Source: Blastocatellia bacterium | GTDB taxonomy: Bacteria > Acidobacteriota > Blastocatellia > HR10 > J050 | Direction of reading: 5' to 3' | Length of the DNA: 52,804 nt | Assembly: GCA_025054955.1 (NCBI GenBank) | Contig: JANWZE010000026.1 | Span: 1 to 52,804 of the forward strand | In this document: positions 1 to 25,611 of the stretch, in pieces | Numbering within the stretch: the stretch's first letter is position 1 | Layout of the letters: every line of letters starts with the position of its first letter | Made by a program: the position numbers and the translations under genes | Notes under the pieces: generated by a model | Database searches by the model: none | Told to the model about the DNA's origin: nothing | Seen by the model: only the letters and a program-made list of their open reading frames with translations

Positions 1-54
1 GGCCGGATTTCGTGAATTCAAAAATTCAAAGATCAAGCGAACGTCTCAAGACAG

Positions 55-70
55 AGCAATCAGTGTGCCA
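55..70 (-). promoter_or_regulatory. sigma-54 (-24/-12) promoter firing leftward out of the window
   Basis: The minus strand reads TGGCACACTGATTGCT. This has the invariant GG (69-68) and GC (57-56) separated by exactly 10 bases and matches the TGGCAC-N5-TTGC sigma-54 consensus at all ten positions. The start of transcription would be near position 44. The controlled gene lies beyond the left edge, and no start codon is visible in the 44 bases left. The promoter is preceded on its upstream side by five palindromic sites and by a sigma-54 activator gene on the same strand, which is the classical enhancer arrangement. Confidence 0.8.
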
Positions 71-169
71 TGTGGGAGCGAGTTGATCAGAGAAGTGGCA
101 ACACTTAGCTCTACCAATGGATAAATGAAATTCGCTGATGAGCGAGTAGAGACCTGTCGGAGGCATGGG

Positions 170-185
170 TTGCGAAATATCGCAA
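170..185. promoter_or_regulatory. isolated palindromic site, candidate enhancer (UAS)
   Basis: TTGCGA-AATA-TCGCAA is a perfect 6+4+6 palindrome. It has the same half-sites as the four-copy array at 250-328 and lies 80 bp from the first copy of that array. It sits about 100 bp upstream of the leftward sigma-54 promoter, a usual distance for an activator binding site. Confidence 0.65.
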
Positions 186-249
186 GTTTGCAAGTCGCTC
201 ATCTCAAGGAAATGAAGCAAAATCCTTCAGCATCAGCCAGAAGCCATGG

Positions 250-328
250 TTGCGACAGATCGCAAGCAGGTTGCGACAGATCGCAAGCAGGTTGCGACAG
301 GCCACAATCGGGTTGCGACCGATCACAA
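250..328. promoter_or_regulatory. four palindromic sites in 21-bp tandem array, candidate sigma-54 enhancer
   Basis: Copies begin at 250, 271, 292 and 313. The first two are exact TTGCGA-CAGA-TCGCAA palindromes. The third (TTGCGACAGGCCACAA) and fourth (TTGCGACCGATCACAA) keep the left half and have decayed right halves. The 21-bp period equals two helical turns, so all sites face the same side of the DNA. The array lies between the sigma-54 activator gene and the leftward -24/-12 promoter, 180-260 bp upstream of the latter. The likely ligand is the adjacent activator through its Fis-type HTH; this is inference. Confidence 0.7.
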
Positions 329-352: not shown

Positions 353-1915
353 TCATTTCTTCCTGATTTCAATTCCCAGCTTTTTCATCTTGCTATGAAG
401 TGTGGAGAGGGGAATCTTGAGCATCCGAGCGGCCTGGCTCTGATTGTAGTTGGTCATCTGTAGCGCAAGCTCAATCCGGTCTCGGATGGCGGCCTCCAGG
501 CTTAGGTCTTTCACATCTGGCTCAGCGGCCTTCACTGGGCTTGTTCGGATCGGCTCCGGCAGGTGTTTGACATCCAGGATTTCACCAGGCACGGTGGCCA
601 CCAACCGCTGAATGAGATGTTCTAGCTCGCGCACGTTGCCCGGCCAATCGTAGGCTTGCAAGGCCTCGTAGAACGCCGTCGTGGCGCAGCCCACCGTCTC
701 TACCTGATGGCAAACACCACAGACGCCTTCGCCCAGTAGGTCGCGTCGCATCTGTTGACAATGCTTCTGAAGAAAGTAGCCGGCCAGCAACGGGATGTCC
801 TCACGGCGCTCGCGCAAGGGCGGCACTCGGAGCGCAAACACACTCAAGCGGTCATAGAGGTCTTCCCGAAACCGCCTTCGCGCCAACAACACAGAGAGGT
901 CCTGGTTCGTCGCCGCGATCAGCCGCACATCCACACGAAGCGGCACATCCCGCCCGATGCGTTGCACCTCACCGTATTCAATCACCCGCAACAATGCTGC
1001 CTGAACTGTCCGAGGGGTATCAGCAATTTCGTCCAGGAAGAGCGTACCGCCTTCAGCCGCTTGGAATTTGCCTGCCCGTTTGCTGGCCGCGCCTGTGAAG
1101 GCATGCCGCTCATGTCCGAACAGTTCATCGGCCACCATGCTCTTTGGAAGCGCGGAGACGAGCACCGGCACGAATGGTTTGTCCCGCCGGTCGCTCCAAA
1201 AGTGAATCGCGCGGGCCGCAACTTCCTTGCCGCTGCCACGCGCGCCGGTGATGAGCACAGGGGCGTTAGTGCTGGCAATGAGACGGATCTGCCGCTCTAG
1301 CTCAAGAAAGGCCGAGCTGGCTCCAATCATGTCTACTTGAAGCTCACTCCGTCTCATCTCTTCTCTGAACAAGAGACGACGGATGGCCAGCACTGCGTCC
1401 GCCGCCAATGTTTCAAGCTGACACCGGTGCGCCTCACGGTAGTATCTTGGGCGGGACGACTCCACATACAGTATGCCCATGACTTGCGCCCCGTCCAGCA
1501 ACGGCACCCAAAGCGATGAGCGGCTGCCGGCCAGCAAGGGAAAATGAGTCGGATCGTGGCGGTGGTCGTCACTGCTGTACCACCGGCCTGATTGTATGAC
1601 CAGCTCGATGGCGCTTCGCGGATTCTGCTTCCACTTCTTTACCAGATCGGCCGGCGTATCAGCTAACGCGCCACGCAGCGCAGAAGCGACTAACTTCGGC
1701 TCCTGAGCGAAAAGCTCGAAGACGAACAGGCCACCTCCTACATCCGAGCGAGTGAGTGCCAGCGCCCGTTCCAGCAGATGACACACCAGCCGGTCTAAAT
1801 TCGTCGCAGGCCGTGATGCTAGGGTCAGCAGGTGATAAAGGAAATTGGTCGGTAGTGTTGCGCTGCGGACCTCCCGCTCGCCTACTCGGTTTGAACGCGA
1901 ATCAGAGCGGCGCAT
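353..1915 (-). CDS. sigma-54-dependent Fis-family regulator with GAF domain
   Basis: This 520-residue cytoplasmic regulator has a GAF-like sensor region (about 25-185), an AAA+ sigma-54 activation domain (about 195-425) and a Fis-type helix-turn-helix in the last 40 residues. Visible motifs are Walker A GARGSGKE (224-231), Walker B GTLFLDE near 292-298, and WPGNVRELE in the lid region. The sigma-54 contact loop reads HAFTGA (268-273) rather than GAFTGA. A short segment near 397-414 carries C-x2-C-H plus a third cysteine, unusual at that place in the family. The ATG at 1915 has AAGGAG seven bases upstream. The gene's 3' end faces the palindromic array and leftward -24/-12 promoter, its probable targets. 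The signal sensed by the GAF region cannot be told from sequence. Confidence 0.92.
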   Translation of the reverse strand: MRRSDSRSNRVGEREVRSATLPTNFLYHLLTLASRPATNLDRLVCHLLERALALTRSDVGGGLFVFELFAQEPKLVASALRGALADTPADLVKKWKQNPRSAIELVIQSGRWYSSDDHRHDPTHFPLLAGSRSSLWVPLLDGAQVMGILYVESSRPRYYREAHRCQLETLAADAVLAIRRLLFREEMRRSELQVDMIGASSAFLELERQIRLIASTNAPVLITGARGSGKEVAARAIHFWSDRRDKPFVPVLVSALPKSMVADELFGHERHAFTGAASKRAGKFQAAEGGTLFLDEIADTPRTVQAALLRVIEYGEVQRIGRDVPLRVDVRLIAATNQDLSVLLARRRFREDLYDRLSVFALRVPPLRERREDIPLLAGYFLQKHCQQMRRDLLGEGVCGVCHQVETVGCATTAFYEALQAYDWPGNVRELEHLIQRLVATVPGEILDVKHLPEPIRTSPVKAAEPDVKDLSLEAAIRDRIELALQMTNYNQSQAARMLKIPLSTLHSKMKKLGIEIRKK

Positions 1916-2617: not shown

Positions 2618-5600
2618 ATGAGTACGCCGTTGATGGCTCGCTATGAAGTGCTTGGCACCTTGGGCAAAGGTGGCATGGGCGAGGTGTTGAAAGCGCGTGA
2701 TCTTCAACTGAAGCGGGTTGTGGCTATCAAGAAATTGCTGCCTAGCTCGCTCGGCGGTGAAGAGGCAAAAGCGCGATTTTTGCGGGAAGCGCGGCTGGCG
2801 GCGCAACTGAGTCACCCCAACATCGCTACCATCTACGATGTGTTCGATGCCGATGGTGAAGCTTTCATCGTGATGGAATTGGTTGAAGGAGAGACGCTGC
2901 GTGAGCTGACGGCGCGCGGCCCGCTGCCGTTGGATCGGGTGTTTGACATCGGCTTACAAATCGCTAGTGCGTTGGCAGCCGCTCACAAACAGCATGTCGT
3001 TCACCGGGACATTAAATCGGATAATATCAAGATCACTCCGGATGGACACGTGAAAATACTGGATTTTGGGCTGGCCAAGCGCGTTGAAACGATTGATCCG
3101 ACCATTGAGCAAACCGTTAAGGCCGAGTCGTTGTGGGTTACGCAAGAAGGCTTCGCGGCTGGCTCGCCTGGGTACACGGCTCCTGAACAATGGCGCGGCG
3201 AACCGGTTGACGCGCGCGCTGATATTTTCTCATTCGGCGTCGTGCTCTACGAGATGATCACTGGCCAGTCGCCATTCCCCGGCAAGTCAGTCGTCGAACG
3301 GATCACTGCGACCATGCACGTTGACCCCAATCCGGTGACCCAGTATGCCTCTGTGCCGGGCCAGCTCGAACATGTCGTCAAAAAAGCGTTGGCCAAGAAT
3401 CCGACCGAGCGGTATCAGTCGGTGGTTGAGATGCAACGCGACCTGGAATCACTCCGCACGCAACAGCTCATGGCGGCGACCGTCGGCCAGATGCCGGCCG
3501 ATGTGTCGGCTTCAGCCGCGTTGCAAGCGCGATACGAAATACTGGGTGAGTTGGGCCAAGGTGGCATGGGCAAGGTCTACAAGGCCAAGGATCGGAAGCT
3601 TGGTCGCATCGTCGCCGTCAAAGAGCTTCGTCAAGGCGTGCTGGCCGATCAGACCTCACGCGCTCGATTTTCCCGCGAAGCAAAATTACTGGCGCAATTG
3701 AACCACCCACATGTAGCCACCATCCACGACATCATTGAAGATGGCCAGCAACTGTTCATCATCTTGGAATACATAGATGGGGAGCGGCTGCTGGACAAGG
3801 TCAAGGCCGGCCCGCTGCCTCCGGAGCAAGCTTATCAATTTGCTCTGGAAGGAGCCGAGGCGCTAGCTCACGCGCACAATCATCAGATCATTCATCGCGA
3901 CATCAAAACGGCCAACATCATGCTGACGCGTGATGGTCACGTCAAGGTGCTCGATTTTGGTCTGGCCAAGCGGCTGACGCCCGAAGAGCTTTCTCAATAT
4001 GCTCAGACACAGAGCATCGCCATCGGATTAACAGCAACCCGCGTGACGTTCGGCACGCCGAAATATATGTCACCGGAACAACGCATGACCGCCGACGTTG
4101 ATGCACGCAGTGATTTGTTCTCATACGGCGTTGTTTTGTGCGAGATGCTGGTTGGGGAATTGTCACTCATGGGTGAAGTGGTCGCCGAATTGCTCGAGAC
4201 GGACCCTGCGTTGTGGCCAGCGCCGCTGAATCGAATTCCTAAGCCGTGGCAACCAATCCTGAAAAAGTGTCTGGCTCGTGATGTTGACGCCCGCTATCAG
4301 ACAGCGGCTGAGTTGATCGCTGATTTGAAGCAGCTTCGATACGTGGCTGACGAGCGTACCGAAATGGCCACCATCGCTGAACGCGCCGTTGAGTGGCCAC
4401 GAGAAAGGATTGCTGCTGGACCGCCCGTCATGCCGACCTTGGTGCGCAGTGGACTGGCGCTCGTGCCGGCTTTGTTCCTGGTTCATCAAGTTGGGCAGGC
4501 ATCTTCAGCCATCGCCGCGCTGTTCTACCTAGCCCTGCTAATTGCGCTGCCGGTGATGATTTTTCAATTGCCCAGGTGGCTCGCCGGCCGCTTCATGTTC
4601 ATGCGCCAACTGGTTCATGAAACCAGTGCGTTGGCATTTCCACTGTTGATGGTCAATCTGGTTTTGGTTTGTCTGGCGGCGATGAGTTTCTTCGATTTCA
4701 TGGGCTGGCAGAGCTGGGGCGATTGGCGATACGCCGTTCGTCATGAACCGGTGAGCCAGGACATTGTATTGGTAGCCATTGATGCGGAAACGAAGGCCTA
4801 TTTCGACACGGTGTTGCAAAAACCGCTGAAAAGCGGCGCCGATCTGTGGAAATTGCGCGAGTACCATCCGATTGTGCTGCGCAAACTGGCTGCCGCGCAA
4901 CCAAAGGTGATCGCCTTCGATTTGTACTTCAGCCATGTCAGCGAAGTGCCTCAGTATGATGATGCGTTTGCTGAGGCCTTGCGCGAGGTGCGGACCCAAC
5001 ATCAGATTCCTATAATCGTTGGACAAGATTTTGATCCACAGCAGCACGAATTCGTGCCGACCACAACGAAACTGCAAGCTGCGTTGGCCGATTCACCGGA
5101 TCAGCCGTTTTGGGGTCATCCTATTGTATTATCGGATCAGACCGGTGGACCTGGCTTCGAGCAGGGCATTGTTCGTGTCGTGCCGATGCAGATCGTTCGC
5201 ACGGCCAGCCTCGATGGCCATGCTGCCACGCTATGGTTTCCTTCGATCTCGCTTTTGATGATGACTGCTGGACAGTACGATATTGGCATAGAGCCGGCCG
5301 GTGGGATATTGACTGTCGCTCAGGTGCACATCCCACTTGATCGTGGTTCGCCCTACCTGAAGAATTTGCCGCCGGGGCCATACCACTATCAGTATCACAA
5401 CATGCTGGTCAATTTCCCCGATGAGCCATTTCGCACTGTCTCGTATGCGAGCCTTATCAATGGCGAAATTAAGCGGGACGATTTCTTTCAGAAGTATGTG
5501 TTAATTGGCAGCGAGTTTCCCGATTTTGAGCCATACCGCTCAACACCCTTGGGGCAATGGTCGCCTTACAAAATTCACGCCAGCGCCCTCAATACGATGT

Positions 5601-5857
5601 TGCTGAAGCAGTATATCCGGCGGTTTGATGGCCTGGGCAAGTTGCTCGTGATGTTGGCTGCTGCTTATCTGATTTTGGCCTTTGCTATCAGATGGCCTGC
5701 GCCATCATGGAGAATCGCAGCGTTGACCGCTGGCGTTTGCGTGGTGATGTTTGCAGTCGCATTGTTCTTATTCTTGCGTGAGCGCATTTGGTTCGATGCG
5801 AGTTATCCCAACCTAGCCGCTGTGTTGACAGGGATATTGGTCTACGTGAAGCGGTGA
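2618..5857 (+). CDS. tandem double Ser/Thr protein kinase with CHASE2 sensor
   Basis: This 1079-residue membrane protein has two complete Hanks-type kinase domains followed by a CHASE2 domain. Kinase 1 (about 9-280) shows GKGGMGEV (16-23), the VAIK lysine K38, HRD at 129-131 and DFG at 149-151. Kinase 2 (about 303-570) shows GQGGMG (313-318), K335, HRD at 426-428 and DFG at 446-448, so both look active. Hydrophobic segments near 610-695 lead into the CHASE2 region (about 705-1005), and three hydrophobic segments close the chain. CHASE2 is known as an extracytoplasmic sensory domain of kinases and cyclases. A kinase placed N-terminally and duplicated is unusual. The ATG at 2618 follows GAGGAA. 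It leads a probable operon with the FecR/TPR, Big_5 and TonB-receptor genes; the signal is unknown. Confidence 0.92.
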   Translation: MSTPLMARYEVLGTLGKGGMGEVLKARDLQLKRVVAIKKLLPSSLGGEEAKARFLREARLAAQLSHPNIATIYDVFDADGEAFIVMELVEGETLRELTARGPLPLDRVFDIGLQIASALAAAHKQHVVHRDIKSDNIKITPDGHVKILDFGLAKRVETIDPTIEQTVKAESLWVTQEGFAAGSPGYTAPEQWRGEPVDARADIFSFGVVLYEMITGQSPFPGKSVVERITATMHVDPNPVTQYASVPGQLEHVVKKALAKNPTERYQSVVEMQRDLESLRTQQLMAATVGQMPADVSASAALQARYEILGELGQGGMGKVYKAKDRKLGRIVAVKELRQGVLADQTSRARFSREAKLLAQLNHPHVATIHDIIEDGQQLFIILEYIDGERLLDKVKAGPLPPEQAYQFALEGAEALAHAHNHQIIHRDIKTANIMLTRDGHVKVLDFGLAKRLTPEELSQYAQTQSIAIGLTATRVTFGTPKYMSPEQRMTADVDARSDLFSYGVVLCEMLVGELSLMGEVVAELLETDPALWPAPLNRIPKPWQPILKKCLARDVDARYQTAAELIADLKQLRYVADERTEMATIAERAVEWPRERIAAGPPVMPTLVRSGLALVPALFLVHQVGQASSAIAALFYLALLIALPVMIFQLPRWLAGRFMFMRQLVHETSALAFPLLMVNLVLVCLAAMSFFDFMGWQSWGDWRYAVRHEPVSQDIVLVAIDAETKAYFDTVLQKPLKSGADLWKLREYHPIVLRKLAAAQPKVIAFDLYFSHVSEVPQYDDAFAEALREVRTQHQIPIIVGQDFDPQQHEFVPTTTKLQAALADSPDQPFWGHPIVLSDQTGGPGFEQGIVRVVPMQIVRTASLDGHAATLWFPSISLLMMTAGQYDIGIEPAGGILTVAQVHIPLDRGSPYLKNLPPGPYHYQYHNMLVNFPDEPFRTVSYASLINGEIKRDDFFQKYVLIGSEFPDFEPYRSTPLGQWSPYKIHASALNTMLLKQYIRRFDGLGKLLVMLAAAYLILAFAIRWPAPSWRIAALTAGVCVVMFAVALFLFLRERIWFDASYPNLAAVLTGILVYVKR

Positions 5858-14149: not shown

Positions 14150-14735
14150 AGGAGGAATCCGAAACCCGAGGCCCTCTTCGAGGGAAATCAGCCCTCTTCG
14201 AGGGAAATCCCAAACCCTAAATCCGAAATCCGAAACAAATTCCAATGACCAAACTCCAAAAAATCCGAAGCACTAAATCCGAAGCCCAAAGCCCGCGGAG
14301 CGGGAAATCCCAAGCCCCTGCGGGGAAATCCCAAGCACGAAATCCGAAATCCGAAACAAATTCCAATGACCAAACTCTCAAATGTGATAAAGGGAGTGGG
14401 GCAGTGTTTGGAAGATTGGGATTTTGAACGTTTCAACTTGTTTCGGATTTCGAGCTTCGGATTTCGCATTTCCCTCGAAGAGGGCTTCGGATTTCCCTCG
14501 AAGAGGGCTGGATTTCCCTCGAAGAGGGCTTCGGATTTCGAGCTTCGGATTTCGGATTTCCCTCGAAGAGGGCTTCGGATTTCCCTCGAAGAGCTTCGGA
14601 TTTCGAGCTTCGGATTTCGGATCTCTCCCGAAGACGGTTTAGGGTTTTGGATTTTGAATTTGTTTCGGATTTCGTGCTTGGGATTTGGGATTTCCCTCGA
14701 AGAGGGCCGGATTTCCCTCGAAGAGGGTTTGGTAT
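14150..14735. repeat. block of hairpin-forming repeats arranged as a large imperfect inverted repeat
   Basis: The core unit TTCGGATTTCCCTCGAAGAG contains CCCTC-GAA-GAGGG, a 5-bp stem with a three-base loop. Plus-oriented copies start near 14471, 14492, 14513, 14558, 14692 and 14712, with degenerate ones near 14581 and 14625. Minus-oriented copies lie at about 14171 and 14191, so the two ends of the block face each other. A 37-base segment containing CAAATTCCAATGACCAAACT is repeated at about 14225 and 14342. Open reading frames through the block give Phe-Gly-Phe-Arg-Ile-Ser repeats and are almost surely not genes. The first bases of the window (CGGATTTCGTG) match the family too. Confidence 0.85.
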
Positions 14736-16794: not shown

Positions 16795-16810
16795 TGCAAC
16801 CGCTGTGCCA
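16795..16810 (-). promoter_or_regulatory. sigma-54 promoter of the metalloprotease gene
   Basis: The minus strand reads TGGCACAGCGGTTGCA, with GG (16809-16808) and GC (16797-16796) exactly 10 bases apart and all ten consensus bases of TGGCAC-N5-TTGC present. Transcription would start near 16784, about 45 bases before the metalloprotease start at 16739. The region between here and 17025 holds no gene. Confidence 0.8.
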
Positions 16811-25595: not shown

Positions 25596-25611
25596 TGGCA
25601 CACTGCTTGCA
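25596..25611 (+). promoter_or_regulatory. sigma-54 promoter of the propeller-like secreted protein
   Basis: TGGCACACTGCTTGCA has GG (25597-25598) and GC (25609-25610) 10 bases apart and all ten consensus bases of TGGCAC-N5-TTGC. Transcription would start near 25622, some 40 bases before the start codon at 25663. Confidence 0.82.

Follow-up and report, generated by a model that had tools for sequence, protein, structure and literature searches.

A probable sigma-54 regulatory cassette with a 21-bp dyad array beside its putative activator gene in a Blastocatellia bacterium

At the left end of contig C26 (52,804 bp, analysed in full and referred to here as the window; the genome comprises 4.69 Mb in 152 contigs), a sigma-54-type promoter is preceded by a series of palindromes and by the gene of a putative activator. 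Enhancers of this general kind are well known in bacteria; the present one is a variant, and phased sites are not new in themselves. The elements concerned are as follows.

1..141, no strand: k-mer-sized assembly overlap with promoter and 5' leader, an exact match to the start of contig C126 and the end of contig C131
55..70, minus strand: -24/-12 sigma-54 promoter TGGCACACTGATTGCT, near-consensus GG-N10-GC, with the same distance to the sites in a second copy and in relatives
170..185, no strand: proximal dyad TTGCGA-N4-TCGCAA, exact, centre 107.5 bp from the -24 element
250..265, no strand: distal dyad 1, exact, centre 187.5 bp from the -24 element
271..286, no strand: distal dyad 2, exact, in an identical 21-bp unit; its counterpart in genome G017 is 21 bp upstream of the distal dyad there
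292..307, no strand: distal dyad 3, degenerate with two mismatches (TTGCGACAGGCCACAA), right half CCACAA
313..328, no strand: distal dyad 4, one mismatch (TTGCGACCGATCACAA), right half TCACAA
248..331, no strand: tandem array of four 21-bp units, half-sites 10-11 bp apart on one helix face
353..1915, minus strand: bacterial enhancer-binding protein with GAF, AAA+ (PF00158) and Fis-type HTH (PF02954) domains and a HAFTGA loop

The preliminary description had placed a consensus -24/-12 promoter at 55-70, and the element indeed agrees with the consensus at 11 of 12 informative bases, with a predicted transcription start near position 45. Sigma-54 promoters of the -24/-12 type are real in this genome: the pattern TGGCAY-N5-TTGCW has 45 matches genome-wide versus 5 for the reversed control, and a single rpoN gene is present, on contig C35 (PF04552 match above cut-off). 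Further strong promoters of this type lie in the window at 16795-16810 (minus strand) and 25596-25611 (plus strand), neither with the dyad arrangement found ahead of 55-70.

Five TTGCGA-N4-TCGCAA palindromes had been described. All are found at the positions first assigned to them, but only those at 170, 250 and 271 are exact, the right half-site being damaged in two of the five (292 and 313). The spacing of the last four by 21 bp does correspond to two helical turns (21/10.5 = 2.0), and TRF resolves 248-329 into 3.9 tandem copies of a 21-bp unit with 85% matches. The array half-sites (250, 260, 271, 281, 292 and so on) follow each other at one turn each on one face, a phasing that arises because the 21-bp unit was duplicated in tandem. 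However, the 80-bp gap to the remaining dyad, previously taken to be close to a whole number of turns, equals 7.6 turns (80/10.5), and the dyad at 170 is therefore out of phase with the array.

Across the window, dyads with up to two mismatches number 8 versus 5.0 expected, and 17 of 100 shuffles reach 8; the signal lies in the clustering, and the count is not unusual. Genome-wide, dyads with at most one mismatch occur at 32 places versus 19 for the reversed control. Most of them are chance occurrences, and therefore a wider regulon could not be inferred. The sole other exact dyad in the genome, at C23:81660, is located, by eye, in an apparently coding region. Two exact dyads 21 bp apart were not found in the viral contigs scanned, and a locus of genome G161 was the only match in a scan of genome contigs. 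A literature search of open-licence papers returned no paper linking TTGCGA with sigma-54.

The next gene upstream on the same strand had been read as a sigma-54 activator with a Fis-type HTH, and domain searches agree (353-1915; PF00158, 195 bits; PF02954, 36.5 bits). The gene is open over 520 codons. Its GAFTGA loop reads HAFTGA, in which AFTGA is retained and the first Gly is replaced by His; Tyr or Asn replaces this Gly in two paralogues. Full-length relatives are present in 3 of the 162 genomes of the class: a paralogue on contig C112 of this genome (62%), one protein in G017 (55%) and three in G161 (56, 48 and 46%). When the search was extended to the whole phylum, the sole addition was a distant activator (G162, 39%), with nothing similar in the first 1.7 kb of its locus. 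At the end of the AAA+ region, the motif Cys386-x12-Cys399-x2-Cys402-x7-Cys410 is kept in all six family members; of 26 activator sequences from class genomes that were scanned for it, the G017 member alone has it. A structure prediction (two sequences) gave a mean pLDDT of 43.6, too low to judge the geometry of the cysteines. That these cysteines respond to redox state or to a metal is conjecture. The C112 paralogue (L072:1113-2669) has a natural YAFTDA in place of GAFTGA, with the second Gly changed to Asp. This position apparently matches that of NorR G266D, a variant that escapes repression by the GAF domain (PMC2941729), and by this analogy the paralogue may be constitutive.

The order of activator, dyads, -24/-12 promoter and target on one strand is found for five of the six members (the window, C112, G017, G161 C251 and G161 C99). 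For the sixth, G161 C165, neither promoter nor dyads were recognisable. The distances from dyad centre to -24 element (bp) are as follows.

Window and second copy: 187.5 and 107.5
C112: 181.5 and 104.5, with a different dyad, TTCACC-N6-GGTGAA
G017: 206.5 and 185.5, with a weaker dyad at 106.5
G161 C99: ~181.5 and 103.5
G161 C251: ~186.5 and 107.5

At these loci the dyads stand about 185 and 106 bp upstream of the -24 box (181.5-187.5 and 103.5-107.5), and the two positions are separated by 77-80 bp, or ~7.3-7.6 turns. Conservation in relatives had been proposed as a check, and GCGA-N4-TCGC dyads do occur beside the orthologues at the same distances from the -24/-12 element. Of 20000 dinucleotide shuffles, 12 (G161 C99), 3 (G161 C251) and 29 (G017) equalled the sites at the window-defined positions, in a test framed after the window was seen and with the G017 and G161 C251 promoters picked from the same stretch. 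These two promoters agree with the consensus at 9 of 12 informative bases each, and that of G017 is one of two candidates. The C112 geometry was reproduced by none of 4000 shuffles. Among the 42 strong sigma-54 promoters of this genome with enough upstream DNA, the two-position geometry occurs at the window and C112 alone, and GCGA-N4-TCGC at both positions at the window promoter alone; other dyads upstream of the 42 promoters do not have this geometry. The operator differs between the paralogues while the spacing stays constant, and nothing else speaks as strongly for binding by the neighbouring activator. Independent support is limited because the loci are few and those of G017 and G161 C251 are closely related. 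At another sigma-54 promoter of this genome (L041, C99:42589), two TGTCAGAAAAATCTGACA dyads lie 18 bp apart, with centres 148.5 and 130.5 bp upstream.

The first 141 bp of the window are the mark of a de Bruijn overlap; to the left, the sequence may continue into C126, into C131, or into each of them in different cells. The overlap is common to both contigs, and therefore both continuations carry the promoter; their 5' leaders are alignable beyond it. The target gene had been expected just off the left edge, with a start within about 200 bp. A gene does start within this distance in the C126 continuation, where an ATG with a ribosome-binding site (L009:258) lies 117 bp left of the window. The product of L009:258-953 has 231 residues, an apparent signal peptide and a cysteine-rich tail, and a thioredoxin-domain protein is encoded next. 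In the C131 continuation the reading frame is apparently broken, with a cysteine-rich tail at its end and a CPBP protease next. Both continuations appear, from their sequences, to lead into genes for exported proteins with cysteine-rich tails. Homologues of L009:258-953 (L109-L119) occur in 16 of the 162 class genomes, including this one, with similar C-terminal tails in most of those read. No Pfam or NCBIfam model covers these proteins, which apparently constitute an undescribed, putatively exported family.

C126 also carries, at ~L009:3086-3460, a remnant of the activator 3' end with an array that has one unit fewer. The promoter of this second copy is weaker (8 of 12) and has the same distances from its dyads (187.5/107.5), and the gene after it encodes a further protein that is apparently exported and has a cysteine-rich tail. 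This copy seems to stem from a duplication of the cassette, with the extra activator lost.

Three members of the activator family are located at radical-SAM gene clusters. After the G017 activator gene come those for a 52-residue candidate precursor peptide, a PqqD/radical-SAM/SPASM protein, an ABC transporter and a B12-type radical-SAM protein, and radical-SAM and ABC-transporter genes are present at G161 C99 and G161 C165. Judged by gene content alone, these clusters would make modified peptides. The gene after the C112 activator encodes a protein of 1628 residues that is apparently exported. Among open-licence papers, a literature search found none on the control of such clusters by sigma-54 in Acidobacteriota. 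At G161 C165, a short Cys/Gly-rich candidate precursor peptide (L082:8213-8040, minus strand) lies upstream of a radical-SAM protein and an ABC transporter.

The locus most closely recalls E. coli NorR and norVW, with a GAF-AAA+-Fis HTH activator, an enhancer between its own gene and the target, and several dyads about two helical turns apart (the NorR sites are spaced by 21 and 24 bp). However, norR is divergent from norV, whereas activator and target are co-directional here; the window activator is 40% identical to NorR, and an extra site lies 80 bp from the array. Identity with NorR itself was rejected: the NCBIfam NorR equivalog scores 310 bits against a cut-off of 476, the HAC iron-ligand stretch of the E. 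coli NorR GAF domain (His111/Cys113 region) is a gap for the window family in the alignment, and the window dyads (TTGCGA-N4-TCGCAA) do not agree with the NorR operator GTCA-N3-TGAC. Myxococcus Nla28 is likewise an enhancer-binding protein acting on sigma-54 promoters, and it controls natural product genes; its kind of site is said to lie typically 80-150 bp upstream (PMC7910581). In contrast, its half-site is CT(C/G)CG(C/G)AG, its targets are polyketide and non-ribosomal peptide genes, and it serves several loci rather than its own neighbour. Like NifA, in which such residues are tied to redox sensing (PMC10590331), the family has conserved cysteines where the AAA+ region ends. Unlike NifA, the window family has C-x12-C-x2-C-x7-C, located before a PGNVRE motif.

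Taken as a whole, the locus is likely to be a self-contained sigma-54 cassette in which a local activator and its enhancer work like NorR. The sequence elements, their recurrence beside orthologues and their conserved spacing are direct observations, and the conserved cassette is very probably functional. The activator encoded at 353-1915 would bind, as dimers, the TTGCGA-N4-TCGCAA dyads directly downstream of its own gene, with a single proximal dyad near -106 and the others, from ~-185 on, in a distal cluster that would have grown by duplication of the 21-bp unit. The GAF domain, and perhaps also the four-cysteine element, would sense a signal, upon which dimers on several dyads would, by analogy with NorR, seed one AAA+ hexamer. 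This hexamer would then loop to the sigma-54 polymerase at 55-70 and drive the leftward gene, whose putatively exported product ends in a cysteine-rich tail. The cooperative loading of several hexamers, as originally envisaged, is unlikely; three dimer sites are required by NorR for one higher-order oligomer (PMC2941729).

Most of the weight among the alternatives falls on the array itself. There is a substantial chance, somewhat short of even, that the 21-bp units are a near-neutral minisatellite and that regulation depends on no more than one or two dyads (170 and 250). The units are near-identical and in tandem, two of the four are decayed, the C126 copy has one unit fewer, and a single distal dyad suffices in most relatives. 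However, the distal dyads of G017 are also 21 bp apart and differ in their outer bases, which argues against a simple recent duplicate, and several sites are used by NorR-type activators. A minisatellite would be compatible with the cassette, since it concerns the extra units alone.

It is improbable that the dyads are bound by a different regulator, such as a repressor or a global factor, with the neighbouring activator acting elsewhere. The apparently coding location of the dyad on C23, which leaves no wider regulon, may be counted on the side of this explanation. However, the dyads track a rare activator family across genomes at typical enhancer distances, and the C112 operator changes in sequence together with its activator while the geometry is constant. 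Equally improbable is a relic promoter, with the left contigs as recombining, decaying copies of a switch out of use. The apparent frame shift in the C131 downstream gene and the decayed activator tail with a second array on C126 are in line with such decay, whereas the intact activator frame, the well-preserved promoter and the C126 target, an open frame that has a ribosome-binding site and is represented by homologues in 15 other class genomes, speak against it.

Beyond the single cassette, the members may belong to a Blastocatellia family of local activators with a rigid two-site frame (~-185/-106, 77-80 bp apart and about half a turn out of phase), in which the operator is re-specified member by member. 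Such a family would activate genes for exported cysteine-rich proteins or radical-SAM peptide clusters, and cysteines of the AAA+ domain might serve it as a sensor of redox state or of a metal. We regard this wider proposal as tentative, with the odds somewhat against it. If it is true, the geometry of the enhancer is conserved and its sequence is not, which would separate reading by the activator from the needs of looping and hexamer assembly, and would suggest how peptide clusters and cysteine-rich proteins destined for export are switched on in a bacterial class that has received little study.

Elsewhere in the window, positions 2618-5857 encode a protein in which two Ser/Thr kinase domains precede a CHASE2 domain, and 14171-14727 is densely occupied by TTTCCCTCGAAGAGGGC-type repeat units with periods of 7, 20-23, 44, 65 and 88.
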